64,000 bases of DNA from Methanocorpusculum sp. (lineage in GTDB: Archaea > Halobacteriota > Methanomicrobia > Methanomicrobiales > Methanocorpusculaceae), in assembly GCA_017399555.1 (NCBI GenBank), contig JAFQBW010000017.1:1-64000 (forward strand), given 5' to 3'. Each line of letters begins with the position of its first letter. Position 1 is the first letter of the stretch. The notes under the pieces were generated by a model that was given only the letters and a program-made list of their open reading frames with translations, had not been told where the DNA came from and did no database searches. The position numbers and the translations under genes were made by a program. Of the stretch, positions 21,771 to 39,363 are shown piece by piece.

Positions 21771-21795
21771 TTTCTTCTCTTTTAGAGAGCAATGT

Positions 21796-21826
21796 GTTTA
21801 TATTACATTACCGCTAAAATATCCAC
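21796..21826 (+). promoter_or_regulatory. Promoter of glmM
   Basis: GTTTATATTA at 21796-21805 is a clear TATA box, and AAATATCCAC at 21817-21826 lies just ahead of the ATG at 21830. The predicted transcript would have a leader of only about ten bases. Confidence 0.55.
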
Positions 21827-21829
21827 ATT

Positions 21830-23086
21830 ATGCTCTTTGGTTCATCCGGGATTCGCAAGGTCTTCGCAGAAGAACTTCTCTCCTTAGGTCCGCTGGTCGG
21901 AGCGGCGGTATCTGTTGATGCAAAGCGTGTTGTTCTGGCAACGGATTCCAGAACAAGCCGCAAAACGCTTGCCGATGCAATGCAGTCAGGACTTCTTGCA
22001 GGAGGGGCGGAGGTACTCTTTGGCGGAATCGCGCCAACGCCGTCGGTCGCTCTTGCCGCAGGAAATGCGGATGCGGGAGTGATGATTACCGCCTCCCACA
22101 ACCCTGAAAACTACAACGGATACAAACTGTTCCGCAAAGACGGCTCATCCTATACTGTTGCCCAGCAGGAGGAGATTGAACGCCGTATTGCAAATCCGCG
22201 CTATGCCGCCTGGGACAAGCAGGGGTCAGTGACAGCGATTGATATCATAACCCCGCACAAGGAAAAAATCCTTGCAGAGATTACTGTCCCTGAGAATATG
22301 ACGGTGGTTGTTGACTGCGGAAACGGTGCCGGAGGACAGATTACTCCGGCGGTTCTTGGAGCAGACGGTGCAAAGGTTATTCCGGTAAACTGTGATGCAT
22401 CCGGAAAGTTTGCCCGCCCATCCGAGCCGCTGGAAAAAAACCTCCTGCATATCCCGGAACTCATCAAAAAGACAAACGCATCCTGTGCCGTGGTAAACGA
22501 CGGTGATGCAGACCGCATGATGGCGTTTGACAACCGCGGACGCTATGTGGACGGAGACAGACTCTTAGCGCTCTTTGCCAAGTATCTGGATGCAAAACAG
22601 GTTGTTACAACCGTTGACGCCTCGATGTCTATCGAAGAAGTTGCCGAAGTGCACCGCACACCGGTCGGCGACAGCTTTGTCTCCGAAGAACTGCTTTCCT
22701 GGGGGACGTTCGGCGGAGAACCGTCGGGAAGCTGGATTTTCCCGAAACACTCGCTCTGTCCGGATGGGCCATATGCGGCAGCCCTGTTTGCGGAGATTTC
22801 CGCGGAATGGGATGTGGCTGAAGAACTTGATGCACTTCCCAAATACCCGATTCTCCGTGACGCGGTTATGACCCCGCACGGAAAGGAGATTATGAACCGT
22901 TTAGGTGCGGAAAACCCGACCGACGGAATCCGTGTAACCGAAGAAAACGGCTGGTACTTAATCCGTGCAAGCGGTACCGAGCCGAAGGTCAGATGTACCG
23001 CGGAAGGCAGAACCAAAGAGGATGCAAAACGTATGCTGGAAGCCGGTATGTCGGCACTGAAAAACGCGGAAAAGGAGATACAGTAA
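21830..23086 (+). CDS. glmM: Phosphoglucosamine mutase / phosphomannomutase family
   Basis: An alpha-D-phosphohexomutase of 418 aa. The phosphoserine loop is TASHNP (S89), the metal loop is DGDADR near 223, the sugar loop is GEPSG, and the C-terminal phosphate loop is RASGTEPKVR. Next to glmU-like genes and glmS it most likely interconverts glucosamine-6-P and glucosamine-1-P. Archaeal family members can also act on mannose or glucose phosphates. The stop overlaps the next start by one base (TAATG). Confidence 0.9.
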   Translation: MLFGSSGIRKVFAEELLSLGPLVGAAVSVDAKRVVLATDSRTSRKTLADAMQSGLLAGGAEVLFGGIAPTPSVALAAGNADAGVMITASHNPENYNGYKLFRKDGSSYTVAQQEEIERRIANPRYAAWDKQGSVTAIDIITPHKEKILAEITVPENMTVVVDCGNGAGGQITPAVLGADGAKVIPVNCDASGKFARPSEPLEKNLLHIPELIKKTNASCAVVNDGDADRMMAFDNRGRYVDGDRLLALFAKYLDAKQVVTTVDASMSIEEVAEVHRTPVGDSFVSEELLSWGTFGGEPSGSWIFPKHSLCPDGPYAAALFAEISAEWDVAEELDALPKYPILRDAVMTPHGKEIMNRLGAENPTDGIRVTEENGWYLIRASGTEPKVRCTAEGRTKEDAKRMLEAGMSALKNAEKEIQ

Positions 23087-24285
23087 TGCAGTGTGTAATT
23101 CTTGCGGCAGGAGAAGGCTCGCGCATGCGGCCTTTGACCTCGTCGCGGCCGAAAGTTATGCTCCCGCTTGTTGGAAAACCGATGCTGGAGCATTTAATCA
23201 GAAACGTCAAGGAAGCAGGAATCAAAGAGATTATCATCGTTGTCGGCTACAAGGAAGAAGCAATCCGCGAGTACTTCGGTGACGGCAGAAGCTTCGGCGT
23301 ATCCATTACCTATGTTGTCCAGAGAAAACAGCTTGGAACAGCAGACGCCCTGCGGACAGCAGAACCCTTTATCACTGACACCTTCCTGATGCTCAACGGC
23401 GATATGGTGATAGAAATCGGTGACCTGCAGAAAATCAGCCGGACCGAAGCGCCGGTAATGGCTGTTACCACAACCACCCACCCGCAGGACTTCGGCGTGG
23501 TAACACTCTCCAAAGGAAAGATTGCCTCCCTGGAAGAGAAGTCGCCGAATCCGAAATCCGACATCATCAATGCCGGTGCATATCTGTTCGGAACAGAAAT
23601 CTTTGAGACCCTGCGAAAAGTCTCGCCGTCATCCCGCGGAGAGTACGAGCTGACCGATGCGCTGATGGACTATATTGCCGAAGAGCGCCTGACAGCCCAC
23701 CCGCTTCTGGTCTGGATGGATGTCGGATACCCCTGGGATATGCTTGCCGCAAACGAGCACCTGATGGAATCCGTGGAGGACACACGCCTTGGAGACATCG
23801 AGGAAAATGTGATCATCCGCGGCAAAATCTACCTCGGAAAAGGTGCGGTTATCAAATCCGGAACCTACATTGAAGGCCCGGTTATCATCGGAGAAAACAC
23901 AACGGTCGGCCCGAATGCATACTTACGTCCGGGAACTACAGTCGGCAAAAACTGCAACATCGGCCATGCGGTGGAAGTGAAAAACTCCATCATCTTTGAC
24001 GGAACAAAGATTCCGCACTACAACTACATTGGAGACAGCGTAATTGGCAGCGGCTGCAACTTCGGCGCTGGAACAAAGATTGCAAACCTCCGCCATGACC
24101 ACGGAATTGTCAAAGTTTCCGGAGTTTCCACAGGACGCAAAAAGTTTGGTGCCGTTATCGGAGACAATGTTCTCTTCGGCATCAACTGCTCGGTAAACAC
24201 CGGATCTTCGATTGGCAGCGGATGCCGGATTGCCCCGAACACCTTAGTGACCGGAAAACTGGACAACGATACGGTGGTGAAATGA
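23086..24285 (+). CDS. glmU: Bifunctional sugar-1-P nucleotidylyltransferase/acetyltransferase (GlmU-like), copy 1
   Basis: A 399-aa protein: an N-terminal nucleotidyltransferase (LAAGEGSRMRPLT from residue 5) and a C-terminal left-handed beta-helix of hexapeptide repeats from about 245. It resembles archaeal enzymes that acetylate glucosamine-1-P and join it to UTP to give UDP-GlcNAc. The start at 23086 is chosen from the family N terminus; an in-frame extension upstream lies inside glmM. It overlaps the following paralog by four bases. Confidence 0.9.
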   Translation: MQCVILAAGEGSRMRPLTSSRPKVMLPLVGKPMLEHLIRNVKEAGIKEIIIVVGYKEEAIREYFGDGRSFGVSITYVVQRKQLGTADALRTAEPFITDTFLMLNGDMVIEIGDLQKISRTEAPVMAVTTTTHPQDFGVVTLSKGKIASLEEKSPNPKSDIINAGAYLFGTEIFETLRKVSPSSRGEYELTDALMDYIAEERLTAHPLLVWMDVGYPWDMLAANEHLMESVEDTRLGDIEENVIIRGKIYLGKGAVIKSGTYIEGPVIIGENTTVGPNAYLRPGTTVGKNCNIGHAVEVKNSIIFDGTKIPHYNYIGDSVIGSGCNFGAGTKIANLRHDHGIVKVSGVSTGRKKFGAVIGDNVLFGINCSVNTGSSIGSGCRIAPNTLVTGKLDNDTVVK

Positions 24286-25406
24286 GCATCCAGGCAGTAG
24301 TTCTCGCAGCAGGTGAGGGAATGCGCCTGCGTCCGCTGACCAAAAACCGCCCGAAGGTTCTGCTTCCGGCAGGAAACCGCCCAATCCTGGAGCATGTCTT
24401 AGACGCGGTTGTCTCGGCAGGAGTTCGCGACATCACGGTGGTTGTCGGATACAAGAAAGAGCAGGTGATGAAGTTCCTGAACACCTATCCGGTTCCGGTC
24501 AAAGTTGTTGTTCAGGAAAAACAGCTTGGAACATTCCATGCGCTCTCCTGTGCTAAAGATGAGGTAACAGCAGACCGCCTTCTCATCATCCCGGGAGACA
24601 ACTATGTAACTGCCGCCTCCTTAAAATCCCTTCTGCAGGAAACCAATGCCGCGCTTGTTGCCCCGCATACCAGACCCTGGGACTACGGGGTTATTACGCA
24701 GAAAGAAGGAACACTCTGTTCCACAAACATGCGGGCATTTGATGCGCCGCCGGGAACACTCGTGGAAACCGGCACCTATCTTCTGGAAAGAAAGCTCTAC
24801 TCGGCATTCTTTGCACTGGAAAACCCGGATGACATCGTCAATGAGATGAGCTACACCGGACATGATGTCCGCGTGGTGGAAGCAAAAGACTGGTATGATG
24901 CTGACTGCTTTGCCGACCTTCTGGAACTCAACCGCTATCTCTTAAGCAAACAGACGGCATGTCTTGGCGGTTTCATTGACCAGCGGGCAACCATCCGCGG
25001 CCATGTGGTAATCGGAAAGGATGTAACGGTCGGTCCCGGCACCGTGATTACCGGACCGGCTATTCTTGGAGACGGCTGTGTCATCCACCCGAATGTCTGT
25101 ATCGAACCGGGAACAGCCCTTGGTGCACGGGTTGAGGTGGAACCATTTACCTATCTCAAAAACAGTATCGTCATGAAGGATACCAGAATCGGTGCACAGT
25201 CGCGGATTGTGGATTCCGTAATCGGTGAGGGCTGTTCGCTGGAACAGACAAGCACTGCATCCTACAGCTTCGGAACAGTAATTGGTGACCGGACAACCGT
25301 CGGTGCTTTTACCCGTCTCAAAGGCGCAGTCATTGGAAACAATGTGGAAATCGACGGCGGAAAACTGATTGAGACAGAAATCCCAAGCGATACGCGGGTG
25401 ATGTAA
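24282..25406 (+). CDS. Sugar-1-P nucleotidylyltransferase with beta-helix (GlmU-like), copy 2
   Basis: A 374-aa paralog of the preceding gene, with the same nucleotidyltransferase signature (LAAGEGMRLRPLT) and a C-terminal hexapeptide beta-helix from about 230. The two look like an old tandem duplication. The acceptor region of the helix differs between copies, so they may split acetyl- and uridylyltransfer or use different sugars (GlcN-1-P versus Glc-1-P). The start at 24282 lies in the ATGA overlap. It is followed by glmS after one base. Confidence 0.87.
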   Translation: MSIQAVVLAAGEGMRLRPLTKNRPKVLLPAGNRPILEHVLDAVVSAGVRDITVVVGYKKEQVMKFLNTYPVPVKVVVQEKQLGTFHALSCAKDEVTADRLLIIPGDNYVTAASLKSLLQETNAALVAPHTRPWDYGVITQKEGTLCSTNMRAFDAPPGTLVETGTYLLERKLYSAFFALENPDDIVNEMSYTGHDVRVVEAKDWYDADCFADLLELNRYLLSKQTACLGGFIDQRATIRGHVVIGKDVTVGPGTVITGPAILGDGCVIHPNVCIEPGTALGARVEVEPFTYLKNSIVMKDTRIGAQSRIVDSVIGEGCSLEQTSTASYSFGTVIGDRTTVGAFTRLKGAVIGNNVEIDGGKLIETEIPSDTRVM

Positions 25407-25407
25407 G

Positions 25408-27147
25408 ATGTGCGGAATTGTTGGGTACCTGGGATACCGACAGGCCGCAGAGGTCTGTATGGAAGGACTTCTGCGCCTCGAATACCGCGGGTATGATTCG
25501 TTTGGAATCGCAACCGTTTCTCCGGAGATTGCAGTCTTTAAAGAGACCGGAAAAATCTCTGCGGCAAAGGATGCAGTGCATCTCAAAGGCACCTGCGGTA
25601 TCGGACACACGCGCTGGGCAACACACGGAGTCCCGAGCAGAACCAACGCACACCCGTTTACGGACTGCACGGGAAAAATCGCGGTTGTCCATAACGGAAT
25701 TATTGAAAACTATGCGGCATTAAAGCGCGACCTGGAAAAACGCGGACACACCTTTGTCTCGGAGACGGATACCGAGGTAATCCCGCATTTAATCGAGGAA
25801 AAGTATACCGGAAACCTGCGCGAAGCGGTTTCCAAAATTCTGCCGCTCTTGGAAGGAGCATATGCGATTCTGGTAATTGCCGAGGGGACGGAAGAGATTG
25901 TTGCCGCCCGCAAAGGAAGCCCGCTGGTTTTAGGAGTCGGAGACCGCGAGTATGTATTCGCATCAGACGGTCTGCCGATTTTAGACTATACGCGAAAAGT
26001 CATCTACTTAGAAGACGGCGACCTTGCAGAGGTAACGCCTGCCGGATATACAATTTACCAGGGCAAAAAACCGGTTGAACGCAAGGTTGCCACGCTTGAA
26101 TGGGATGCAGCAGATGTCCGCAAAGGCGGGTTTGCACATTACATGCTCAAGGAGATGTACGAGCAGCCGGAGGTGTTCTCAAACACCATCAATTCCATTA
26201 CAGAAAATGCAGCAGCGCTCTGCCGCATCCGCGAAGCGCGGTCAGTAACGGTGGTTGCCTGCGGAACTTCAGCAAATGCATCCACGGTCTTTGCCTATCT
26301 GATGGAGTCGGTCTGCGGGATTCCCACACGCGTTGTTCTGGCATCCGAGTTCAAGTACTTCCCGACACCGAAAAACGATGTGGTGATAGCCGTCTCACAG
26401 TCCGGAGAGACCGCAGATACGATTTCCGCATTGAAGATTGCAAAAGAGCGCGGGGCAAAAACCTTCTGCGTGACAAACGTGCTCGGCAGTTCCTTAACCC
26501 GCATTGCAGAGACCACGCTTTATACGCGCGCAGGCCCTGAGGTTTCAGTTGCGGCAACCAAGTCCTTTACCGCACAGGTTGCGGCATTTATGGAGATTGT
26601 AAATATCATCTCCGGCGGAATGCTGAAAAAAGCGGTCGCAGAAATCCAGCGCTATCTCCCGGAAGCGCTGGACTGTGATGTAGAATCTGCAGTGGAACTG
26701 GTAAAGGATGCGTCAACCCTGCTCTATGTCGGACGCGGATTAAGCTACCCTATATCTATGGAGGGGGCATTGAAGATGAAGGAGATTTCCTACATCCACG
26801 CAGAAGGCTATGCGGCAGGAGAACTGAAGCATGGTCCATTTGCCCTGCTCTCCAAGGAGACTCCGGTTGTTGCGGTCTGTCTGCCGGGCAGTACGTATCC
26901 TGTTATGATGTCAAATCTAAAGGAAATAAAGGCACGCTCCGCACCGGAGGTTGTTATCGGGTGCGTGGGAGATATCGATGCCGAAGAGATTGCGGATGTG
27001 TTTATCCCGCTGCCGAAGGTCTCTGAGACGGCAGGAGTAATCCTTGCATCGGTTGTTTTGCAGATGCTGGCATACAAGACGGCTGTGGCGCTCGGTACTG
27101 ATGTGGATATGCCGAGGAATTTGGCGAAAAGTGTGACGGTGGAGTAA
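25408..27147 (+). CDS. glmS: Glucosamine-6-phosphate synthase
   Basis: Makes glucosamine-6-P from fructose-6-P and glutamine. The catalytic Cys2 (MCGIVGY) begins the class II glutaminase domain, followed by two SIS domains with GTSANAS and SQSGETADT sugar-phosphate loops and the family C terminus with AKSVTVE. Its 579 aa are a little shorter than bacterial GlmS, as in other methanogens. It is the last gene of the glmM-glmU-glmU2-glmS run and is convergent with the glycosyltransferase gene after only three bases. Confidence 0.96.
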   Translation: MCGIVGYLGYRQAAEVCMEGLLRLEYRGYDSFGIATVSPEIAVFKETGKISAAKDAVHLKGTCGIGHTRWATHGVPSRTNAHPFTDCTGKIAVVHNGIIENYAALKRDLEKRGHTFVSETDTEVIPHLIEEKYTGNLREAVSKILPLLEGAYAILVIAEGTEEIVAARKGSPLVLGVGDREYVFASDGLPILDYTRKVIYLEDGDLAEVTPAGYTIYQGKKPVERKVATLEWDAADVRKGGFAHYMLKEMYEQPEVFSNTINSITENAAALCRIREARSVTVVACGTSANASTVFAYLMESVCGIPTRVVLASEFKYFPTPKNDVVIAVSQSGETADTISALKIAKERGAKTFCVTNVLGSSLTRIAETTLYTRAGPEVSVAATKSFTAQVAAFMEIVNIISGGMLKKAVAEIQRYLPEALDCDVESAVELVKDASTLLYVGRGLSYPISMEGALKMKEISYIHAEGYAAGELKHGPFALLSKETPVVAVCLPGSTYPVMMSNLKEIKARSAPEVVIGCVGDIDAEEIADVFIPLPKVSETAGVILASVVLQMLAYKTAVALGTDVDMPRNLAKSVTVE

Positions 27148-27150
27148 GGG

Positions 27151-28281
27151 TTATTTCTGAACCCTTTCCCACTGCAGGATATTTTTTCTTCTGACAAGAC
27201 CAACTGTCAGGAAAAATTGATTCATAAGAAAACTGCTGATAAGATGTTTGGGGTTCAGCAGGGTAAAGACAATACCTGCCGCACAAACCATGAGCAGAAC
27301 TCCGCCAAGAATCGGCGAGAGGAAAAATGCTCCAAGCAGTCCAAACAGAGCTGTTAGTATGAACAATATTGGAGAGTAGAGAAGCATCCATTTTCGTTTT
27401 GGGAATGTTTCTGTCCAGAATTTTCGGTTACTGTTTTTTCCCGCATCTTTGAAAAGTCTGGTACTATTAACTAAACCATCAGCTCTGCGTATTTTTTGTG
27501 AAAACTGCTCTTTCAACGATATTGGCTGAAGCTCAAATGCCACTGCATCTGAAACGTACAATGCTCTAAAACCGTTTCTAATACACGTAAGAGCAAGATT
27601 TGCATCATCAGCACCCCTTTTCTCTTCAACATGAGGGACGGCTGTCTTCTTAAAGGCGATTAACGGTCCGTTAAAGTTGTATGTTGAATCAACAAAACTG
27701 TCATATTCACACATTTTTCCATATACAGAACGGTATGCGGTTTCCGAACCTGCAACAGAACTGTTTGAACCAACGGGAACTAAATCTGCACAGACAGCAC
27801 CAACATCATCTTCAGACAGAACATCTACCAACCGAAGAAGAGCATCGGGTTTTGTCGTAATATCCGCATCGGTAAAGATAATGATATTGTCAGAAATACG
27901 GGCGATAGCATTATTCTGACAAACAGTCTTTCCCAGACGGTGTTCCGGCTCAATAAGATGTGTTTCGAAGGGGCAGGCAGGAAGTATTTTCTTGGCGGCG
28001 GCACTGGTTTTCGGGTCTGCTCCATCATTAAAAATATACAGAGTTATTTTATCTAATGGATATTCGGTTTTGAGAATATCTTTTATTCGTTCAGCAACAA
28101 GTTCTCCTTCCTTGTATGCATTAATGACAATACTGATATTTGGATATTCAGTCCTATTTTCCTGTTTTGAAGAGCAAATGGGCTTTCCCAACTTCGTGAG
28201 GTAGTATAGGTATGGATATGCCGCACATATCCCGCATACTAAACCTGCACCGAGCAGAAAACAGCCTGCAGCCACTATCAT
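27151..28281 (-). CDS. Membrane-bound GT2 family glycosyltransferase
   Basis: A 376-aa protein with an N-terminal membrane helix (about 3-25), a GT-A domain with the DxD-type motif in FTDADITT near 140, an ED-type acid further on, and C-terminal hydrophobic segments at about 300-345. This is the layout of processive or lipid-linked glycosyltransferases that act at the cytoplasmic face. The gene is more A/T-rich than its neighbours. Its place between the UDP-GlcNAc genes and aglB suggests a role in building the lipid-linked glycan; the substrate is not known. Confidence 0.85.
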   Translation of the reverse strand: MIVAAGCFLLGAGLVCGICAAYPYLYYLTKLGKPICSSKQENRTEYPNISIVINAYKEGELVAERIKDILKTEYPLDKITLYIFNDGADPKTSAAAKKILPACPFETHLIEPEHRLGKTVCQNNAIARISDNIIIFTDADITTKPDALLRLVDVLSEDDVGAVCADLVPVGSNSSVAGSETAYRSVYGKMCEYDSFVDSTYNFNGPLIAFKKTAVPHVEEKRGADDANLALTCIRNGFRALYVSDAVAFELQPISLKEQFSQKIRRADGLVNSTRLFKDAGKNSNRKFWTETFPKRKWMLLYSPILFILTALFGLLGAFFLSPILGGVLLMVCAAGIVFTLLNPKHLISSFLMNQFFLTVGLVRRKNILQWERVQK

Positions 28282-28352
28282 ATGATATTTGTATCTTTTT
28301 TCTCACACATAAGAGTGCTGTTCTTTTTTTGACACAAGAGAGCCATCCAGTT

Positions 28353-28384
28353 AGTTTATCACATATTGCTTCCAAAATATACAT
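28353..28384 (+). promoter_or_regulatory. Promoter of aglB
   Basis: AGTTTATCAC at 28353-28362 and AAATATACAT at 28375-28384 form the box-plus-initiator pair seen elsewhere in the window. Unlike other cases the leader is longer, about 25 bases, with GTGAG as a possible ribosome-binding site before the ATG at 28407. Confidence 0.45.
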
Positions 28385-28406
28385 ATCTACTATTTCACGT
28401 GAGAGT

Positions 28407-31007
28407 ATGGATTTCAGTTTCTGGAACAACAAAAAATATCGATACGGAATTATCGGCGGCGCTCTGCTTCTGATTACCGTACTCGCCCTTGCAGTCCGTC
28501 TTCTGCCGATGGGAGATCTCGTCGGTACCGGAGACATGATTGCAGGCCCTGATGCATGGTACAATCTGCGTCTGGTTGAAGTACTGCTTGCTTCCGGCGG
28601 ATTTATTTTCTTTGAGCCGATGACGTTATTCCCGACTGGACAGGATATCGTCTGGGGTCCGCTGTTTACCTACATTTCAGCATTCTTCGGTCTCTTTGCC
28701 GGAGAGGCAGGAAGAGTTGCCTTAATTGATGCAGTTTCCTGGACGCCGGCAGTTCTCGGCGCACTGATGGTACCGGTGATGTTTTTCCTCGGAAAAAAAC
28801 TCGGCGACTGGAAGACAGGCCTTCTTGCAGGACTCTTTGTCGCGGTAATCGGCGGCCAGTTCTTTGCCCGTTCCATTTACGGACACTTTGACCACCACAT
28901 TGCAGAGACGCTGTTTTCCACACTCTTTGGAATGTGTTACGTCTTAGCACTTGCCAACCTGCGCGGAAAGGAGATTTCGCTGAAAAATAAAGCAAGCCTG
29001 AAACTGCCGGTTATTTTCGGAATTGTTTCCGGCATTGCATACTTCCTCGGTCTTCTGACAATGACAACCCTTGTTGTCTTTGGTCTCTTTGCCGCAGTTT
29101 TCACGCTTGTTCAGTTCATTCTGGATGTAAAAGCAGGCAAACCAACCGAGTATCTGCTCATCCTGAATATCCTTACCTTCGGGGTTGCTGTCCTCGGACT
29201 GCTTGTTTACGGAATTAAGGATTTTGGATTTGGATTCTACAGTTATTCCCTCGCTCTTCTTGCAGCTCAGATACTGGTAATTCTTGGAACTATCTTCCTC
29301 TATGCTCTGCAGAAAATTACTGCAAAACTGGAAAAACCCTGGTACATTTATCTTGCCTCAATTGGGGGTGTTATAGTTATTGGTATTCTTGCAGTGTGGA
29401 TTATTCTTCCAGACCTGTTTGGATCAATGCTTTCAAACCTCCTGAGCTTCTTTACCAATAATTCAACTGCAGCGACAATTCAGGAAATGTCCTCCTGGTC
29501 CGTTGAACAGGCAGTATCCTCCTTCGGCTGGGGACTGCTGCTTGCGGTCGGCGGATTTGCAGTCCTTGTCTGGCAGGTTATCCGCCGTGAAACACCAGCA
29601 GCACTCTTTGTTCTTATCTGGTCACTCTTCATGTTCTTGGCAACAGTTGCCCACATTCGCTGGGAGTACTTCTTTGCAGTGAACATCGCACTGCTTGCTG
29701 CGGTCTGTGTATCCTGGGCAATCTCCTTTGCCGCAGATGAGGTGAAAAAACTCCTCGGCAAAAAACAGCCGGCAGAAGCTCCGGTTGGAAAGAAGGGAAA
29801 GAAGGCAGTATCCACTGTTTCCGACAAGCCGGATGTTTTAAAGATTGGTGTACTGGCAGTTGTTGTACTGGTTGCTCTTGTCTTTACCGGAATGTCTGCT
29901 GCAGCAGCAGTGAATACCGCATCCGCATACGGTCAGGCAGGCGGCACCGAGAAGGATTGGATTGAAGCAACCGAGTGGCTTGTCACCGGAACGCCGGAGA
30001 CCGGCATTGACTACTACACACTCTATGATGAGGAAGGATTCTCCTACCCGGCAGAGGCATACGGTGTTATGTCCTGGTGGGATTACGGACACTACATCAC
30101 AACGATAGGGGAACGCATCCCGAACAGCAACCCATTCCAGGCAGGAGTTTCCGGTGAGTACGGAGCCGCACAGGTTTTAACGGCAACCGATGAGGATGCT
30201 GTCGTCGAGAAACTTGATTATCTCGGAACCAAATATGTCATGACCGATTATCAGATGGCAGGCAGTAAGTTCGGCGCCATGTCCATCTGGGCAAACACCA
30301 CCCTGCAGACCGCACCGTTCTACACCTATCTCCTGCAGCAGAGTTCAACCGGTGCATACTCTGTTGTCTCTGCACAGACGCCGGAGTACTACAACACCTT
30401 AACTGCACGGTTACAGAACTTCGACGGCTCATACACGGAAGCAGGATCTGTTGCTCTGGTCTTAACGGACAACTCTGCCGGATACGGCTATCCGGTCATC
30501 ACCTACACGAAATCCTACGCAAACGCTGATGACGCGTGGAAGGCGGCAAAGGAATACAACGCACAGAACGCAAACACCGCAGCCGGAAAGTACGCATACG
30601 TAATCTCCATCCCGACTGATGTTACCAACTACTTCGACCCGAATGTGGATGTCGCAGCCCTCAAACACTTCCGCCTTGTCCACGAGTCCGACACCTATCT
30701 GATTCCGAAAGACAGCTACTCGTATTACCTCACCGAGCCGAACGGCGGCGGTACTGCATGGGTCAAGACATTTGAGTACGTGGAAGGCGCAGTCATCAAA
30801 GGAAACGGCATCATCTCAATTGATGTCACCACCAATAACGGCAGAACCTTCACCTATCGTCAGGTAAGCGAGAACGGTCAGTTTGTTGTTCCGTACGCAA
30901 CCGGACAGACTGGTGAAATCAAGACCGGCATCTACAAGATTGAGGGAAGCGGTCAGACCTTTACTGTCTCTGAGAAGGCAGTCCAGAACGGACTGACTGT
31001 CAACTAA
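28407..31007 (+). CDS. aglB: Oligosaccharyltransferase AglB (STT3 family)
   Basis: Transfers the lipid-linked glycan to Asn in N-X-S/T sequons of S-layer and other exported proteins. It has 866 aa: about 13 membrane helices up to residue 510, then a soluble domain containing the catalytic WWDYG motif at 557-561. The first acidic residue lies in GPDAWYN (D49), and an HFDHH motif follows in the second external loop. The start at 28407 places the first helix normally; an in-frame extension overlaps the divergent gene. The last 22 codons recur in degenerate form near 31787. Confidence 0.95.
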   Translation: MDFSFWNNKKYRYGIIGGALLLITVLALAVRLLPMGDLVGTGDMIAGPDAWYNLRLVEVLLASGGFIFFEPMTLFPTGQDIVWGPLFTYISAFFGLFAGEAGRVALIDAVSWTPAVLGALMVPVMFFLGKKLGDWKTGLLAGLFVAVIGGQFFARSIYGHFDHHIAETLFSTLFGMCYVLALANLRGKEISLKNKASLKLPVIFGIVSGIAYFLGLLTMTTLVVFGLFAAVFTLVQFILDVKAGKPTEYLLILNILTFGVAVLGLLVYGIKDFGFGFYSYSLALLAAQILVILGTIFLYALQKITAKLEKPWYIYLASIGGVIVIGILAVWIILPDLFGSMLSNLLSFFTNNSTAATIQEMSSWSVEQAVSSFGWGLLLAVGGFAVLVWQVIRRETPAALFVLIWSLFMFLATVAHIRWEYFFAVNIALLAAVCVSWAISFAADEVKKLLGKKQPAEAPVGKKGKKAVSTVSDKPDVLKIGVLAVVVLVALVFTGMSAAAAVNTASAYGQAGGTEKDWIEATEWLVTGTPETGIDYYTLYDEEGFSYPAEAYGVMSWWDYGHYITTIGERIPNSNPFQAGVSGEYGAAQVLTATDEDAVVEKLDYLGTKYVMTDYQMAGSKFGAMSIWANTTLQTAPFYTYLLQQSSTGAYSVVSAQTPEYYNTLTARLQNFDGSYTEAGSVALVLTDNSAGYGYPVITYTKSYANADDAWKAAKEYNAQNANTAAGKYAYVISIPTDVTNYFDPNVDVAALKHFRLVHESDTYLIPKDSYSYYLTEPNGGGTAWVKTFEYVEGAVIKGNGIISIDVTTNNGRTFTYRQVSENGQFVVPYATGQTGEIKTGIYKIEGSGQTFTVSEKAVQNGLTVN

Positions 31008-31016
31008 TTTTTTTTT
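31008..31016 (+). terminator. Oligo-T terminator after aglB
   Basis: Nine T residues directly after the aglB stop codon. A near-identical T-tract follows the duplicated aglB tail at 31853. Confidence 0.55.
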
Positions 31017-31063
31017 CTGCAAAACATCTTATCTCAGGAAAGCATATAGATACATTATCAGAA

Positions 31064-31393
31064 ATGTCAGGGTACATCAGTATCAAAGAGGAAGTACTTT
31101 CCCGAATCGGACAGAACATGCCGGAGATACAATCACGTTTTGGTATCGAAAGTCTCGGTATCTTCGGATCAGTTTCACGCGGGGAAGATACTGTTGAATC
31201 AGATATTGATGTTCTGTACAGATTTTCAACCCCTTCCATCACGCTTAGTCAGTTTATGGGATTGAAGGAGTATCTGGAAGACCTCTTCGGCAGAAATGTT
31301 GACCTTGTCAGTCTGGACTGGATTGAACCGAAAATCGAACTCAAAGTAAAAGGAGACATGATTCTGTTTTCTGCACCTGCTGCTGAAGTATGA
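31064..31393 (+). CDS. mntA: MntA-type nucleotidyltransferase (antitoxin), copy 1
   Basis: A 109-aa minimal nucleotidyltransferase with GS-x10-DxD: GS at 35-36 (GSVSRG) and D47/D49 (SDIDVL). In MNT-HEPN systems this enzyme inactivates the HepT RNase by adding AMP units to its active-site tyrosine. It overlaps hepT by four bases. It is homologous along its length to the second copy at 58305. The gene and its partner lie between aglB and a degenerate copy of the aglB 3' end and are more A/T-rich than flanking genes, which suggests recent arrival. Confidence 0.9.
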   Translation: MSGYISIKEEVLSRIGQNMPEIQSRFGIESLGIFGSVSRGEDTVESDIDVLYRFSTPSITLSQFMGLKEYLEDLFGRNVDLVSLDWIEPKIELKVKGDMILFSAPAAEV

Positions 31394-31728
31394 AAGATGA
31401 TGCAGTCTACCTTGGTCACATGGCAGAGCGCTGCCGAAAAATTCTTCGGATAACATATGGAATATCACCTGAAGCATTCTTTGAAGATGAGGATTTGCAG
31501 GATGTTGTTATCCGGTCTCTTGAGATAATCGGAGAGGCCACAACACATATCTCAGATGATATAAAAGAACAGTTTTCTGATATCAAATGGGTGCATTGGA
31601 AAAACTTCCGCAATGTTATGATTCATCAATATTTCAGAATAGATATGCATTTGGTTCTCGGAGTTGTCAGGAATGATGTTCCGCAGCTTCTCTCGTGTAT
31701 TGAATCCATTCTCGATTCGTTGTCATGA
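31390..31728 (+). CDS. hepT: HepT-type HEPN ribonuclease toxin (DUF86), copy 1
   Basis: A 112-aa helical HEPN protein. The RNase motif R-x4-H-x-Y is complete (R74, H79, Y81 in RNVMIHQY), so it should be active unless modified by MntA. The start overlaps the mntA stop (ATGA). HEPN/MNT pairs act as toxin-antitoxin modules and in some hosts in defence. It is similar in length and motifs to the minus-strand copy at 57979. Confidence 0.9.
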   Translation: MKDDAVYLGHMAERCRKILRITYGISPEAFFEDEDLQDVVIRSLEIIGEATTHISDDIKEQFSDIKWVHWKNFRNVMIHQYFRIDMHLVLGVVRNDVPQLLSCIESILDSLS

Positions 31729-31771
31729 AGTTGGGACAGTATCAAATGCCCGGGTTTTGCTCCTTCCGTTG

Positions 31772-31852
31772 AATATTTTCTATCCTGAAGGAAGCGGTCA
31801 GACCTATACCGTCTCTGAGAATGCAGTTCAGAACGGACTGACTGTCAACTAA
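31772..31852 (+). pseudogene. Remnant 3' end of a second aglB
   Basis: From 31787 to the stop at 31850-31852, 22 codons including the stop match the aglB end at 30942-31007 with five base changes, three of them silent (the others F to Y and K to N); the following T-tract is also shared. Similarity fades upstream of about 31772. No other part of an aglB remains. It is either the scar of a lost tandem aglB paralog or a by-product of insertion of the MntA-HepT module. Confidence 0.75.
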
Positions 31853-31894
31853 TTTTTTTCTTTCTTCTTTTTCAACTCTCCCACTGAAACCACA

Positions 31895-31929
31895 CCTTTA
31901 TCCGCTTACACGCCGAAGATATACATATA
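31895..31929 (+). promoter_or_regulatory. Promoter of the DUF2098 gene
   Basis: CCTTTATCC at 31895-31903 and GATATACATAT at 31919-31929 lie directly ahead of the ATG at 31931. With transcription starting in the second element the mRNA would be nearly leaderless. Confidence 0.5.
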
Positions 31930-31930
31930 T

Positions 31931-32212
31931 ATGAGCGAATTTGAAATCGGTCAGACCGTGCGCTACTCCCGTACCGGAACCGTTGGAAAAATTGTCTCCT
32001 TCGCTGAAATCGACGGCAGCACCTTCGCAGAAATTGACACAACCGGTCTGCTGTACCGCATCGACCAGTTAGTGGAAATCCACGAAGAGATGCGGGCATC
32101 GGCAGAGAAAGTCGATGTCAAGAAACAGATTCTTGATGAGCGGGAAAAACTCCGCGAGATGCAGGAGTCTGCCTGGCTGAATGTTGACCAGAGCTGTGAG
32201 GGCGGAGGATAA
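31931..32212 (+). CDS. DUF2098 protein
   Basis: A 93-aa protein with an N-terminal small beta-barrel (IGQTVRYSRTGTVGKI) and a C-terminal charged helix of about 40 residues with coiled-coil character. The pattern fits DUF2098, a family found mainly in methanogens and of unknown function. It lies alone between the aglB region and the aIF2gamma operon. Confidence 0.85.
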   Translation: MSEFEIGQTVRYSRTGTVGKIVSFAEIDGSTFAEIDTTGLLYRIDQLVEIHEEMRASAEKVDVKKQILDEREKLREMQESAWLNVDQSCEGGG

Positions 32213-32278
32213 TCCTCGACCACACAGGTATATCAGTCTTGAAGACAATTATATAAGGAGTACGGAGGTTTTGGTAAC

Positions 32279-33511
32279 TTGAATGATCCTACAATACCCA
32301 ATGTAAATATCGGCGTTGTCGGCCATGTCGATCACGGCAAGACGACGCTTGTCGGTCAGCTTACCGGGTCCTGGACTGACCGCCACAGCGAAGAGCTGAA
32401 GCGCGGCATCTCGATTCGCTTAGGCTACGCTGACGCCACGTTCTATAAATGTCAGAAATGCGGAGCTGACGGATGGTCAAACACCAATGTCTGTCCGAAC
32501 TGCGGAGAAAAGATTGAGGCAGTCCGCTCAGTATCTTTTGTCGATGCACCAGGCCACGAGACCTTAATGGCCACCATGCTTTCCGGTTCTGCAATCATGG
32601 ACGGCGCAATGCTTGTAATTGCCGCAAACGAGCCGTGCCCGCAGCCGCAGACCAAAGAGCACTTAATGGCTTTAGAGCTTACCGGCATCAAAAACATCGT
32701 CATCGTTCAGAACAAGATTGATGTCGTGCCGCAGAAGCAGGCTATCGAAAACTACAAGCAGATTAAGGCATTCGTTAAGGGAACCGTTGCAGAAAACGCA
32801 CCGATTATCCCGGTCTCCGCACAGAAAAAGATTAACTTCAATATGTTAATCGATGCGCTCGACACCGTCATCCCGAATGAGGAACGTGATTCCGAAGCAT
32901 CCCCGGTGATGCTTATCGCACGCTCGTTTGACGTCAACCGTCCGGGAAGTTCCTGGAAGGAGATTAAAGGCGGTGTTATCGGCGGATCTCTTATCAGAGG
33001 AGAGTTCCACGAAGGAGACGAGATTGAAATCCGTCCGGGAAGACAGTACATGTCTGAGAATAAGGCAAAGTGGGAGCCGATTATTACCAAAATCACCTCT
33101 ATGAACAAGGCTTCCCGCAAAGTGCCGACCGCAACCCCCGGAGGACTCGCAGCTATCGGAACCAAACTCGACCCGGCGATTACCAAGAGCGACACTTTAG
33201 TCGGTCAGGTCGCAGGCGCTGTCGGCGAACTGCCGCCGGTCTGGGACAAGATGAAGTTCAACGTCCAGTTAATGGACAGAGTTGTCGGTTCCGCATCCGA
33301 GCTCCACATCGACCCGCTCCGCTTAAAAGAGCCGCTGATGCTTTCCGTTGGAACTGCAGTCACTGTCGGTGTGGTTACTGCATCCAAGAAGAATGTGGTT
33401 GAAGTAATCCTGAAACGGCCTGTCTGTGCGGAAGTAGGATCCCGTATCGCAATCAGCCGTCAGGTCGGAGGAAGATGGCGGTTAATCGGAATGGGACTTC
33501 TCACCGAGTAA
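32279..33511 (+). CDS. eif2g: Translation initiation factor aIF2 subunit gamma
   Basis: The GTPase core of archaeal IF2, which binds Met-tRNAi. P-loop GHVDHGKT is at 15-22, G3 is DAPGH, and a zinc knuckle (C58, C61, C72, C75) follows switch I. At 410 aa it is of normal length. The start is TTG at 32279: the family N terminus fits it, no in-frame ATG or GTG is nearer, and GGAGG lies at 32265-32269. A weak start on a core gene may moderate its level. It overlaps the PIN gene by 37 bases. Confidence 0.96.
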
Positions 33512-33888
33512 ACGTAGTCTTTGATACGAATGCATTAATGATGCCGGCGCAGTTCGGCGTTGACCTCTTTGGAGGGCTTACCGAACTGCTCGGCGGGTAT
33601 GACGCATGGGTTCTTCCCGAAGTCGTATCCGAACTGCGCGGGCTTACCAATGGTTTCGGGAAAAACGCGGCTGCCGCACGGTTTGGTTTAACCGTTGCCG
33701 CCCGCTGTAAGCTTCTCGAACCATGGGATGAAGACATCCCGGTTGACGATAAAGTGGTGGCCAACGCACGAGAGATTAATGCTGTAGTAGTGACAAATGA
33801 TAGAGAACTAAAAAAGAAACTCATCGACCAGCAGATTGCGGTTGTGGTCCTGCGTTCGCGATGCAGGCTTGAGTTGATTGGAAAATAA
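33475..33888 (+). CDS. PIN-domain ribonuclease (Fcf1/VapC-like fold)
   Basis: A 137-aa PIN protein: first acid D17 in VVFDTNALM, the middle acidic helix with VVSELRGL, and the final VVTNDREL motif, so the metal site looks complete. It is encoded between aIF2gamma and Rpo7 as in many euryarchaea, with no antitoxin next to it, so a housekeeping role in rRNA processing (as for eukaryotic Fcf1/Utp24) is more likely than a toxin. Its start overlaps the end of aIF2gamma by 37 bases. Confidence 0.88.
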
Positions 33889-33907
33889 CAGAGTCAGCGA
33901 GAAACAT

Positions 33908-34474
33908 ATGTATTACAAACTGAAATTAAACGATAAAGTCAGAGTTCCGCCGGAGCGTATGGGAGAAGACCTCAATACTGTTATCTTAGACGTCTTACAG
34001 GAACAGTTTGAGGGAAGTGTTGACAAGGAGATGGGTATCTTTATCGCTGTCACCGGCGTTCAGCGTGTCGGCGAGGGTGAGATTATTTACAGTGACGGCG
34101 GCGTTTACTATGACGTTGACTTCGAAGCTGTCGTTCTCCGCTTAGCCCTGCAGGAAGTTATCGAAGGTATTGTAGTCGAAACCACGAGCTTTGGTGCATT
34201 TATCTCTCTTGGCCCGATTGATGCGATGCTCCACATGAGTCAGATTTCCGATGAGTACATCGACTATGACGAGAAGAACTCCCGCCTTGTCTGCAAGGAT
34301 TCCGGCAGACACTTAGGTGTCGGCGATACTGTCCGTGCCCGTGTTGTTGCACTCTCCTTAAACGAGCGTGACCCGCGTGAGTCCAAGATTGGTCTGACCA
34401 TGCGCCAGCCGGGACTCGGCAGCCTTGCATGGATTGAAGCTGACAGAAGCAGCGAGAAGCAGGAGACTGCATAA
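33908..34474 (+). CDS. rpo7: RNA polymerase subunit Rpo7 (E')
   Basis: A 188-aa subunit of the Rpo4/7 stalk of archaeal RNA polymerase, which binds emerging RNA and helps initiation and termination. The N-terminal tip domain begins YYKLKLNDKVRVPPE, and an S1/OB RNA-binding domain fills about 80-180. The start at 33908 matches the family N terminus; the in-frame upstream start lies inside the PIN gene. The last base of the stop is the first base of spt4. Confidence 0.95.
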   Translation: MYYKLKLNDKVRVPPERMGEDLNTVILDVLQEQFEGSVDKEMGIFIAVTGVQRVGEGEIIYSDGGVYYDVDFEAVVLRLALQEVIEGIVVETTSFGAFISLGPIDAMLHMSQISDEYIDYDEKNSRLVCKDSGRHLGVGDTVRARVVALSLNERDPRESKIGLTMRQPGLGSLAWIEADRSSEKQETA

Positions 34475-34692
34475 TGGCCGCAAAGCGCGCATCCCAGAAG
34501 AAGGTTCTTCAGGCATGCAGAAACTGCCACAAGGTCTTAGAAGCTGACAAGACCATCTGCCCGGAGTGTCAGGGTTCCGCCCTTACTCCGGAGTGGTTCG
34601 GCTACCTGGTCATTATTGACGCCCGCCACTCTGATGTTGCAAAGAAGATGAACATCGAGTACAACGGCCGCTACGCACTCAAGGTCAGATAA
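34474..34692 (+). CDS. spt4: Transcription elongation factor Spt4 (RpoE'')
   Basis: A 72-aa zinc-ribbon protein (C15, C18, C29, C32) that pairs with Spt5 to clamp RNA polymerase during elongation. It follows rpo7, the standard archaeal order, with a one-base overlap on both sides (TAATG). Spt5 is not in this window. Confidence 0.95.
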   Translation: MAAKRASQKKVLQACRNCHKVLEADKTICPECQGSALTPEWFGYLVIIDARHSDVAKKMNIEYNGRYALKVR

Positions 34693-35177
34693 TGCTGACG
34701 CTTCCGCCGGAGTGCCGCGGACTGCTGAAAGAGCCGTTCGGCTCTCTTCATCCTGATTTTTCTGAAATTATTCCATATCTTACCCACCGGTCTTTCTGTA
34801 CGGTCGGCGATGTTGTTACCAGAAACGCGTTTTTGCACGGGTTAACACCGGATGTTTCGGTAATCGACGGTTTTACCAAGCGTTCGGATGCAGTATCCCT
34901 CCCGGAGTTTTCCGGAACGATTCTGGAAGTGAAAAACCCTGCCGGCTGTATATCCGAAGAACTCGAAGAGGCGCTTCAGGAGGCCTATTCCCTGCGCCCA
35001 TCGCTGATACTGGTTGACGGCGAAGAAGACCTTGCGGTTCTTCCGCTGATTTCAATCCTCCCGGATTCTGCGGTTATTTTGTACGGACAGCCGGATGAGG
35101 GCGTTGTTTTCTGCGAGGTCACCGAGTCTCTCCGCAAAAAGGCCGCAGAGATTCTCTCCTGTTTTGTCCGTGTGTGA
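34692..35177 (+). CDS. GTP-dependent dephospho-CoA kinase
   Basis: A 161-aa DUF359-family protein, the archaeal enzyme of the last step of coenzyme A synthesis, using GTP. Recognisable blocks are the GDVVTRN segment near 38-44, VIDGFTKR near 57 and the LVDGEEDL motif near 110. It follows spt4 with a one-base overlap, its common place in Euryarchaeota next to S24e. Confidence 0.9.
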   Translation: MLTLPPECRGLLKEPFGSLHPDFSEIIPYLTHRSFCTVGDVVTRNAFLHGLTPDVSVIDGFTKRSDAVSLPEFSGTILEVKNPAGCISEELEEALQEAYSLRPSLILVDGEEDLAVLPLISILPDSAVILYGQPDEGVVFCEVTESLRKKAAEILSCFVRV

Positions 35178-35182
35178 CGCAG

Positions 35183-35212
35183 GTATTAAATGGACAGCGC
35201 GCCAATATCTTA
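35183..35212 (+). promoter_or_regulatory. Promoter of the S24e operon
   Basis: GTATTAAATG at 35183-35192, then CCAATATCTTA at 35202-35212, ten bases before the ATG at 35223. A box this strong suggests that S24e-S27ae-Kae1 can be transcribed apart from the Rpo7 operon upstream. Confidence 0.45.
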
Positions 35213-35222
35213 GGGATATCGA

Positions 35223-35513
35223 ATGGAGATTAAGATCACCTCTAATACCAGAAACGAGCTCCTTAGCCGTTCCGAGGTTGCATTCACCGCAGTTTACGAA
35301 GGTGCAACCCCGTCCCGTATGGACATCGGCGCAAAGATTGCAGCTCTCCAGAATGCACCAGTTGAGAACCTTGTCCTTTCCCCGCTCCAGAGCCGCTTTG
35401 GTGTCAGAGCAGTTCAGGGTGTTGCAAGAATCTACGACTCTGTCGAGGCACTGAAAGCAACCGAGCGCGCATACCTTATCGCACGCGGACAGAAGAAGGA
35501 AGAGGCTGAGTAA
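35223..35513 (+). CDS. rps24e: 30S ribosomal protein S24e
   Basis: A 96-aa small-subunit protein specific to archaea and eukaryotes. The N-terminal stretch [15 protein letters not shown] and the following GATPSR motif are typical. It is two bases upstream of S27ae. Confidence 0.96.
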
Positions 35514-35515
35514 AC

Positions 35516-35701
35516 ATGGCAGCAAAGAAAGCAGCAAAGAAGGCAGCTCAGAAGCGCAGCGACCTTTACACTGTCGACAACCAGGGTAAAGCAACCACCA
35601 CCCGCAAGTTCTGCCCACAGTGCGGACCAGGAGTCTTTATGGGAGAACACAAGGACCGGTTTGCATGCGGAAAGTGCGGATACACTGAGTTCAAGCAATA
35701 A
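35516..35701 (+). CDS. rps27ae: 30S ribosomal protein S27ae
   Basis: A 61-aa protein with a lysine/alanine-rich N-terminal tail and a C-terminal zinc ribbon (CPQC and CGKC pairs). In eukaryotes the homolog is fused to ubiquitin; here it stands alone as usual in archaea. It is followed by kae1-bud32 after 13 bases. Confidence 0.95.
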
Positions 35702-35714
35702 AATACAAAAAATC

Positions 35715-37292
35715 ATGCCCGGAAAAAGGGTTTTAGGCATTGAAGGGACAGCATGGAACTTCAGTGCCGCTGTTTTTGACGACGATTTGGTATGTCTTCA
35801 TTCGTCGCCGTATTCTCCGCCGTCCGGCGGCATTCATCCAAGAGAAGCAGCTCAGCACCACGCAGCAGTAGCTTCCGATGTAGTATCCAAAGCACTTGCT
35901 GATGCAAACGGAAAAATTGACGCGGTTGCATTTTCCATTGGCCCTGGTCTTGGTCCGTCGCTTCGAACTGCGGCAACCACAGCCCGCACGCTTGCGCTGA
36001 AGTATGATGTGCCGCTGATTGGCGTAAATCACTGTGTGGCGCACGTGGAAATCGGCAGATGGTACACGAAGTTTGAAGACCCAATCGTCCTCTATGCATC
36101 AGGCGCAAACACGCAGGTCCTTGGATTTTTGAACGGCCGCTACCGTATCTTCGGCGAGACGCTGGATATTGGGCTTGGCAATGCGCTGGATAAGTTTGCC
36201 CGCAGTCACAACCTCCCGCATCCGGGAGGACCGCTCATTGAACAGCTCGCAAAGAACGGTTCCTACATCCCGCTTCCGTACACGGTAAAGGGAATGGACC
36301 TCGCATTCTCCGGACTCATGAGCGCGGCAAAGGATGCGACCACGCGCGGAGCGAGCATGGAAGATGTCTGCCACTCATTCCAAGAGACCGCATTTGCCAT
36401 GTGTGTTGAGGTCACGGAACGCGCACTTGCCCACACCGGAAAGGACGAGGTTATCTTAGTCGGCGGTGTCGGTGCGAACATGCGTCTGCAGGAGATGCTG
36501 CGCATCATGTGCGAGGAGCGCGGAGCACGCTTTATGGCGCCGCCGAGAACCTATATGGGAGACAACGGCGCCATGATTGCCTATACCGGAAAGGTCATGC
36601 TCGAAGCAGGCTCGACGATTTCGGTTGCAGACTCTGTGGTCAATCCGCACTACCGCTCCGACCAGGTGGAAGTGACCTGGCGCGCGGATGCAGGCGAACT
36701 CTTTGCCCCCGGACAGTCCGAGACTGCCGAGCGCGGAGCAGAAGCCGCGGTTGATTTAACCGGCGTTGACGCAGTCAAGACGCGCCTTTCCAAAGGATAC
36801 CGCACACCGGCACTTGACCGCCACTTAATCACAGAGCGCACCCGTGCCGAAGCGCGCTGTATCGCCGCCGCACGCAGAGGCGGTGTCCCGACACCGATTA
36901 TCCGCGATGTAACCGAGACCTCCATTATTATGGAGAAGCTCGAAGGCGATGTCTTAAAGTACGTAATCACGCCGGATTACGCACACGCCGCCGGAAAAAC
37001 CGTGGGCAGACTCCATCAGGCAGGACTGGTGCACGGAGACCTGACCACCTCCAACATGATCTGGAAGGATTCCCGCGTGTATCTCTTGGACTTCGGTCTC
37101 GCCCAGATGACCGAAGAGATTGAACCGCGCGGAGTGGACCTGCATGTTCTCTTCCAGACACTGGAAAGCACCACCGAAAATCCGGAGATTCTGCGTGCGG
37201 CATTCACCGAAGGCTACCGCGCGGCATTTGCCGGCGCAGACGCTGTGCTTGCCCGCGAGCACGAAATCGAACTTCGCGGAAGATACCTATGA
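35715..37292 (+). CDS. Kae1-Bud32 fusion: tRNA t6A synthase and kinase
   Basis: A 525-aa fusion. Residues 1-325 are Kae1, which transfers threonylcarbamoyl to A37 of ANN-decoding tRNAs; the metal histidines are H106 and H110 (HCVAHVE). Residues about 335-525 are Bud32, a small RIO-like kinase/ATPase with HGDLTTSN and LLDFGLAQ motifs. The fusion is known from Methanomicrobia and some other euryarchaea. The start at 35715 matches the family N terminus. It overlaps rdgB by four bases. Confidence 0.95.
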   Translation: MPGKRVLGIEGTAWNFSAAVFDDDLVCLHSSPYSPPSGGIHPREAAQHHAAVASDVVSKALADANGKIDAVAFSIGPGLGPSLRTAATTARTLALKYDVPLIGVNHCVAHVEIGRWYTKFEDPIVLYASGANTQVLGFLNGRYRIFGETLDIGLGNALDKFARSHNLPHPGGPLIEQLAKNGSYIPLPYTVKGMDLAFSGLMSAAKDATTRGASMEDVCHSFQETAFAMCVEVTERALAHTGKDEVILVGGVGANMRLQEMLRIMCEERGARFMAPPRTYMGDNGAMIAYTGKVMLEAGSTISVADSVVNPHYRSDQVEVTWRADAGELFAPGQSETAERGAEAAVDLTGVDAVKTRLSKGYRTPALDRHLITERTRAEARCIAAARRGGVPTPIIRDVTETSIIMEKLEGDVLKYVITPDYAHAAGKTVGRLHQAGLVHGDLTTSNMIWKDSRVYLLDFGLAQMTEEIEPRGVDLHVLFQTLESTTENPEILRAAFTEGYRAAFAGADAVLAREHEIELRGRYL

Positions 37293-37831
37293 TTACTGTA
37301 GTTACCGGAAACAAGGGAAAGGCGGCAGAGGTTGCGGCATTCTTTGCCGGAATCACGGACGTTACCCACACCCCGTTTGAAGCGGTCGAACCGCAGGCGG
37401 AAAGCATCGCAGAGATTGCCCGCGCCAAAGCCGAGCAGGCATATGCCGCGCTCTCCACGCCGCTGATTGTAGACGACACCGGACTGTTTGTCGAAGCGCT
37501 CGGCGGATTTCCCGGACCCTATGCCGCTTATGTGCAGGACACCGTTGGAAATGACGGCATCCTGCGCATTATGGCAGGCATCGAAAACCGCCGCGCATAC
37601 TTTGCAACCGCGGTCGCCTATGCGGATGCAGACGGCATTAGGGTGTTTGAGGGTAAAGTGGACGGGGAAATTACCCTATCACCGCGCGGAACTGACGGCT
37701 TCGGGTACGACCCAATCTTTGCGGTCGGTGATAAAACCCTCGCAGAGATGACTATCACCGAAAAGAACCAGGTTTCGCACCGCGCACGGGCCTTGGAAGA
37801 GTTTAGAAAATGGTATGTTTCTCTCCGCTGA
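37289..37831 (+). CDS. rdgB: XTP/dITP diphosphatase (RdgB/HAM1 family)
   Basis: A 180-aa house-cleaning pyrophosphatase that removes ITP, XTP and their deoxy forms. The substrate loop TGNKGKAAEV is at 5-14, the catalytic acids lie in DDTGLFVEAL, and GTDGFGYDP follows. Complete length. It is translationally coupled to kae1-bud32 (ATGA). Confidence 0.95.
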   Translation: MITVVTGNKGKAAEVAAFFAGITDVTHTPFEAVEPQAESIAEIARAKAEQAYAALSTPLIVDDTGLFVEALGGFPGPYAAYVQDTVGNDGILRIMAGIENRRAYFATAVAYADADGIRVFEGKVDGEITLSPRGTDGFGYDPIFAVGDKTLAEMTITEKNQVSHRARALEEFRKWYVSLR

Positions 37832-37907
37832 GAGTGCCTTCCCAACGGAATCGTTAATATCACGGAGAGCATACAATATTAGCACGAAAATATCGGGGTA
37901 ATATATC

Positions 37908-38051
37908 ATGAGATTCCCAGAAGCAGAAGCAAGACTCCTTAACGTCAAAGTTTGTATGAAATGCAACGCAAGAAACGCAATCCGCGCAACCACCTGCCGC
38001 AAGTGCGGTTCCTCCTCTCTTCGCCCGAAGAACAAGGAAAGAAAGGCATAA
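37908..38051 (+). CDS. rpl40e: 50S ribosomal protein L40e
   Basis: A 47-aa zinc-ribbon protein with C16/C19 and C30/C33, and the [11 protein letters not shown] terminus usual in euryarchaeal L40e. The ATG at 37908 follows an A/T-rich promoter region (AAATATCGGGGTAATATATC). It is often missed because of its size. Confidence 0.95.
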
Positions 38052-38115
38052 GCATTTCTTCATACTTTTTGGTGCGCGCATCCGTGCACCCCAACAATTT
38101 ATTTTCCGAGGTCAG

Positions 38116-38664
38116 ATGAAATTCATTCCCGACTCTCACGCACGCCTCTGGGCGATTTCCGTCTTTGTTTTTATCGCTATCCTTGTCTGTGTCATCTGTA
38201 ATATGGCAATTCAGAGAGAGATGACCTGGCTTGTGTATCCGGTGTGTTCTCTTATCTTTGCCTGGGGAGTGTTTGCCCCGCTTATCTACCGCGGAAAAGA
38301 GGGGCTTCTGCTCTCACTTGGTCTGCTGTCAGGCCTCATCCTGCCGTATCTGTTGGTCCTTGAACAGTGGACACACACCGGCAGCTGGTTCATCCCGGTT
38401 GCGTTTCCAATCTCCGTCTTTGCGGTTCTCTTTATCTGGATAACTTATGCAATCCTCACCCGCATCAAAAACCCCTGGTATGCTTCTTCGGCAATAATTG
38501 CCGCGGGCGGCGTTCTTTCGCTTTGTACGTATCTTGCAATCCTTGGGCTTTCTGACTTTGCCATGTTTCCGTGGGGCTGGATTTCCTTCGGCTCGGCTCT
38601 CGGCCTGGCTCTTCTCCTGCTGATTGCAGGCCGCATCAGAAGAGAAGCGAATAACAAGCTCTAA
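38116..38664 (+). CDS. Hypothetical integral membrane protein, 182 aa
   Basis: About six hydrophobic segments span residues 12-30, 38-55, 60-80, 90-112, 122-142 and 150-170, with a short basic C-terminal tail. No family is recognised and there are no conserved polar motifs. It lies between L40e and the Bles03-like gene with ordinary spacing. Confidence 0.75.
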   Translation: MKFIPDSHARLWAISVFVFIAILVCVICNMAIQREMTWLVYPVCSLIFAWGVFAPLIYRGKEGLLLSLGLLSGLILPYLLVLEQWTHTGSWFIPVAFPISVFAVLFIWITYAILTRIKNPWYASSAIIAAGGVLSLCTYLAILGLSDFAMFPWGWISFGSALGLALLLLIAGRIRREANNKL

Positions 38665-38690
38665 ATAAATTCTTGTTCATAGTATCAACT

Positions 38691-39362: not shown

Positions 39363-39363
39363 C

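Follow-up and report, generated by a model that had tools for sequence, protein, structure and literature searches.

A predicted MntA-HepT gene pair between aglB and a second, apparently native aglB 3' end in a Methanocorpusculum genome

Results and discussion

The aglB locus

We have analyzed a window of 64,000 nucleotides, by which we mean the whole stretch of DNA under study, from the genome (G000; 2,024,668 bases in 67 contigs) of a gut Methanocorpusculum. The features discussed here are presented in Table 1. An intact gene for the oligosaccharyltransferase AglB is followed by two small genes, behind which the end of aglB is found a second time. The two copies (tail 1 and tail 2) are spaced 845 bases apart and are identical at 69 of 74 nucleotides. 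When the window was searched by blastn with the first copy masked, tail 2 matched with an E value of 1.2e-27, while the runner-up had an E value of 0.47. All five base differences lie within the 22 codons (tail 1/tail 2: GAG/GAA, TTT/TAT, ACT/ACC, AAG/AAT and GTC/GTT); three are silent and two are replacements (F/Y and K/N). TAA and then at least seven T residues close both copies. A first-pass annotation of this DNA had described the repeat in these terms, with five changes, three of them silent, and the same T-tract, and these results bear it out. That annotation also took the mostly silent changes as a sign that the second tail had belonged to a working paralog, but three silent changes of five against an expectation of 25% is not significant (binomial p 0.10) and carries no weight. 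Immediately upstream of position 31786 nothing resembling aglB is seen, and no further copies of either tail were reported elsewhere in the window's own genome.

Table 1. Positions of the features discussed, in coordinates of the window
Feature	Position	Strand	Remarks
Glycosyltransferase gene upstream of aglB	27151-28281	-	Type as in G003/G004/G007, unlike G006/G009/G018
aglB, oligosaccharyltransferase, intact, 866 aa	28407-31007	+	TIGR04154 782 bits, STT3, AglB core, AglB_L1
Tail 1	30941-31014	+	Final 22 aglB codons, with the stop, plus T7; full run T9
mntA-like antitoxin gene, 109 aa (predicted)	31064-31393	+	PF01909 (NTP_transf_2) E 3e-10
hepT toxin gene, 112 aa (predicted)	31390-31728	+	PF01934 (HepT-like) E 5e-23
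Spacer between hepT and tail 2, 57 bp	31729-31785		Putative right junction of the foreign segment; G023 colinearity from 31786
Tail 2	31786-31859	+	22 codons and T7; taken as the stranded native aglB 3' end
DUF2098 gene, native downstream neighbour of aglB	31931-32212	+	PF09871
Second module	57979-58631	-	hepT 57979-58308, mntA 58305-58631; site empty in both G023 and G006
Divergent tract adjoining second module	58698-59497	+	82.5-91.5% to G023

The mntA-like and hepT frames overlap by 4 bases and are the sole genes between the tails. The earlier recognition of a MntA-HepT pair between aglB and a second 3' end agrees with the intact PF01909 and PF01934 genes found here. The MntA-like protein contains the GSX10DXD motif (GSVSRGEDTVESDID) and HepT the RX4HXY motif (RNVMIHQY), which are given as the motifs of the MNT and HEPN proteins of HepT/MntA in the consulted part of PMC7641770. 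On the basis of the adjacent genes and these motifs we assign the pair to the class I HEPN/MNT (HepT/MntA) toxin-antitoxin systems; its scores against the NCBIfam equivalogs NF047752 and NF047751 (42.5 and 45.5 bits) are under the curated 60-bit cut-off, and the pair is for this reason placed in the wider class only. Judging from motifs and position, the pair is probably a working type VII toxin-antitoxin in which adenylylation by MntA blocks the RNase HepT; the T-tract of tail 2 may now end the transcript of the module.

The 778-bp insert (31008-31785) contains no integrase-sized open frame. No terminal inverted repeats are found at its ends, and the two inverted pairs present in 28000-33500 do not flank it. 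A virus or plasmid origin of the module was considered and rejected or given little weight: neither relatives of HepT or MntA nor the tail pattern (0 matches) were found in viral contigs, and the plasmid HepT matches (1458 records) were all below 60% identity, with none archaeal among the 8 matches listed.

Comparison with related genomes

The related loci are from Methanocorpusculum, several of them from ruminant or deer colon. We searched 24 congeners and found an aglB match in 18; G001, G005, G010, G012, G022 and G024 had no match and were left out of the counts. Each of the 18 genomes has one aglB match, and DUF2098 stands behind aglB in all 19 loci (the 18 congeners and the window's genome). 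The gap between the two genes is 43-117 bp in 16 congeners, about 215 bp in G015, 1141 bp in G009 and 923 bp in the window's genome. The MntA-HepT module and the second tail are absent from this locus in 18 of 18 congeners with aglB, and the tail pattern occurs twice per locus only in the window's genome. Thus there is no sign among these relatives of the two intact aglB genes that the first-pass annotation had proposed to look for by aligning the locus; the outcome that it named as fatal to its reading, with module and tail present in all relatives, is contradicted as well (0 of 18). A tandem origin, with a second complete aglB once present here and its body later replaced by the module, would leave the order aglB, module, aglB tip that is seen. 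This would require two events, and it is opposed by the single aglB of every congener and the single tail per locus outside G000; we consider it improbable.

In G009 an unrelated gene of 356 aa (L103:10623-11693), acyltransferase-like by eye, lies directly behind the aglB stop and is not accompanied by a second tail. The aglB tail of G009 is like that of G023, but the DNA behind its insert is like that of G006. The site behind aglB thus accepts inserts, but the stranded tip is unique to the window's genome. The occupied site in G009 lends something to an explanation by site-specific integration at the aglB 3' end, in which the repeats would be attL and attR of a decayed integrative element supplying a substitute 3' end, as does the fact that a direct repeat at both ends restores the 3' end of the gene. 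Against this stand the content of the insert, which holds mntA and hepT only and no integrase, the lack of a second tail at the G009 insert and of the tail pattern in viral contigs, and a divergence that reaches far into aglB (see below). Such an integration seems to us very unlikely.

The sister genome, G023, has DUF2098 immediately behind aglB. The alignment of G023 to window positions 31786-39369 (97.5% identity over 7585 bp, with one gap) starts exactly where tail 2 starts, and the G023 aglB ends where tail 2 ends. On the strength of this colinearity we take tail 2 to be the tip of the host's own native aglB, left at its original position, and not the paralog remnant first supposed, against which the single aglB of each congener also speaks. 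In substance, then, the second tail matches the host's own aglB, which had been named beforehand as evidence against the original reading. The G023 genome is 79% complete and lacks 20526-28592; as its contig starts within aglB, the left breakpoint is not seen.

The tail distances by themselves leave the native copy undecided, with 5 differences per 66 nt between tail 1 and tail 2, 4 between tail 2 and G023, and 5 between tail 1 and G023. The codons AAT and GTT of tail 2 are common to G023 and G009, and tail 1 has AAG as in G006 and G018 and GTC as in G018. Tail 2 carries Y at a position that is F in 18 of 19 aglB tails. This residue, and the two replacements among five changes, are what would be expected of a dead copy if the module had come in by itself close to the aglB 3' end, with duplication of the tail by staggered break repair or template switching and later drift of one copy; five changes in 66 nt is also little more than neutral drift since the split of G000 and G023 (0.068 at 4-fold sites) could produce. 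However, two of the three private states of tail 1 would then have converged on the states of G006 and G018, and neither the raised divergence in aglB from column 400 to the end nor the reversal of the polarised counts described next would be explained. We therefore regard this duplication as unlikely. The earlier statement that the second tail is not a fresh duplication is probably right as regards a simple one, but not for the reason given, as the argument from silent changes fails.

Divergence of the upstream aglB

The nucleotide identity of aglB to G023 is 86.2%, against 97.5% downstream. Among 200-bp windows compared with G023 (alignments under 600 bp dropped), 9 of 160 fall below 90%, seven in aglB and two beside the second module, and none of 143 background windows does so (mean 97.1, minimum 91.0). 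Divergence at 4-fold sites between G000 and G023 is 55/149 in aglB columns 63-400 and 43/236 from column 400 to the end, compared with 52/764 in a flank of six downstream genes (Fisher p 7e-20 and 1e-6, respectively), that is, 2.7 to 5.4 times the value of the flank. At sites where three outgroups agree, from column 400 to the end G000 is the odd one 30 times and G023 14 times, and in the flank the counts are 15 and 28 (p 0.0026 for the contrast, with a column-400 cut that was picked after the profile was seen and sites that are not independent). In columns 290-400 the roles are reversed, with G023 odd at 35 sites against 7, so that some of the divergence in aglB has arisen on the G023 side. 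This suggests a separate exchange within the G023 gene, and aglB was thus probably exchanged in both lineages. The G023 (L041) sequence in these columns is a membrane-region stretch unlike that of its four nearest relatives. The last 71 columns, beside the module, have no raised 4-fold divergence (3/34, p 0.75), which counts against an imported aglB, although all 6 polarised changes there fall in the window's genome. Taken together, the upstream aglB is the suspected recombinant copy.

The glycosyltransferase gene upstream of aglB is 56-59% identical to the types of G001, G003, G004, G007, G015, G017 and G019, but only 37-38% to the genes at the same place in the nearer relatives G006, G009 and G018, and it too was probably swapped. 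Across the genus, two unlike glycosyltransferase types occupy this place. G021 has one type together with a C-terminal fragment of the other, which suggests another stranded remnant.

Proposed origin of the locus

The explanation that we favour, with a probability of roughly 0.6, is that the aglB 3' half, a new tail and the module entered together by recombination, displaced the native gene and stranded its tip. The exchange would have taken place in the G000 lineage after its split from the sister G023, and the source would be an unsampled close relative in which at least the 3' half of aglB had the MntA-HepT pair directly behind it; a donor genome was not found, the module being absent from 18 of 18 congeners with aglB. 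The incoming DNA would have recombined with the resident aglB through homology in or before the gene, and its other end would have joined the chromosome at a point where no homology is visible, 22 codons short of where the resident gene ends, so that the native tip was left behind. The result would be a mosaic but intact aglB that ends in tail 1 from the donor, then the pair, an orphan tip (tail 2) and unchanged native neighbours. What is observed is the absence of the module from the sampled congeners with aglB, the colinearity from tail 2 and the divergence of aglB; what we infer from this is one import, with a homologous and an illegitimate end. A divergent homologous tract on one side of the added non-homologous DNA is present, subject to the reversed polarity in columns 290-400, the last 71 columns and the post hoc choice of the cut. 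The first-pass annotation had offered entry of the module with a piece of foreign aglB as one possibility; foreign aglB DNA was probably involved, but the second tail is apparently native and was not brought in with it.

Other MntA-HepT modules in the genome

HepT matches occur at 7 places in the window's genome (8 at a looser limit), of which four were looked at. The second module, like that at aglB, has an empty site in relatives. Its neighbours on the two sides, named by eye, are genes for a CDC48-like ATPase and a SIS-domain-like protein. On its right flank, successive 200-bp windows are 90.5, 82.5, 84.5 and 91.5% identical to G023 and then at least 94%, and the left flank is 96.5-98% identical, so that the divergent tract is on one side only. 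For the third module (L219:10162-10819), the corresponding site is empty in G023, G018 and G006, and both flanks are at about 98% with no divergent tract. Here the pair (L219:10119-10815) has replaced a spacer of about 20 bp, a T-run and an A-run, between convergent genes that by eye are PEBP-like and TATA-binding-protein-like, and its hepT now ends within the native join. The fourth module (L220:7274-7935) stands at a synteny break. Given the empty sites at these further modules, insertion of minimal MntA-HepT pairs is repeated in this genome. A divergent tract lies beside two of the three modules that can be judged (the first and second, not the third), and a general rule that modules adjoin such tracts was discarded, as it fails at the third.

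These modules also bear on whether the aglB locus is an artefact of mixed-strain assembly. The splitting of the genome into 67 contigs would suit such an artefact. Yet the join of hepT to tail 2 is not at a shared word, unless the tail already follows hepT in one strain, and two other modules have ordinary empty sites; of all the explanations considered, we give this one the least credence.

Returning to the joint import of aglB and module, it may be asked whether the locus stands for a more general process. In Methanocorpusculum, MntA-HepT pairs without a transposase could ride on short patches of homologous recombination, anchored by a core-gene arm with the pair added at the opposite end, and the addictive pair could help to fix the imported allele, in this case a new aglB in a surface-glycosylation locus with a swapped glycosyltransferase. 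We put this forward as a doubtful proposal only. Should one-sided divergent tracts recur in more strains, they would provide a direct test of pairs hitchhiking on homologous recombination.

Comparison with known systems

As a single event the locus is ordinary, a new instance of a known event type: cleanly preserved debris of a gene swap, and no new system. Its value lies in a base-precise scar that shows how a small toxin-antitoxin pair lacking mobility genes can come into a conserved chromosome of an archaeon along with a core gene that is exchanged. Among the papers listed for aglB with toxin-antitoxin, or for Methanocorpusculum with either, no title or opening of an abstract deals with such a junction. 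Two-gene MNT-HEPN mobile modules with insertion polymorphism between close relatives are described from Deinococcus and Thermus in the portion of PMC2701414 (Makarova et al. 2009) consulted, and the module here likewise stands in one genome while a close relative lacks it at the syntenic position; unlike those cases, its insertion is tied to the displaced tip of a neighbouring core gene. A displacement model in which new DNA is anchored by homology upstream and the 3' part of the old gene is shifted downstream of the module is outlined in PMC5361080, and homology-facilitated illegitimate recombination is treated as a process in PMC3240628, as far as the excerpts of both go. The locus follows that outline, with homology upstream and an orphaned 3' end downstream, but differs in being in an archaeon, in a glycosylation gene, with a toxin-antitoxin pair and with a tip of only 22 codons, and its mechanism is deduced from the scar. 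Finally, lateral transfer and within-gene recombination of aglB are reported for Haloferax in the part of PMC5867893 seen. The two cases have in common an exchange between related archaea and variable neighbours of the gene, whereas the one proposed here concerns a methanogen genus and would combine the exchange with a stranded tip and a toxin-antitoxin cargo, neither of which appears in the part seen.
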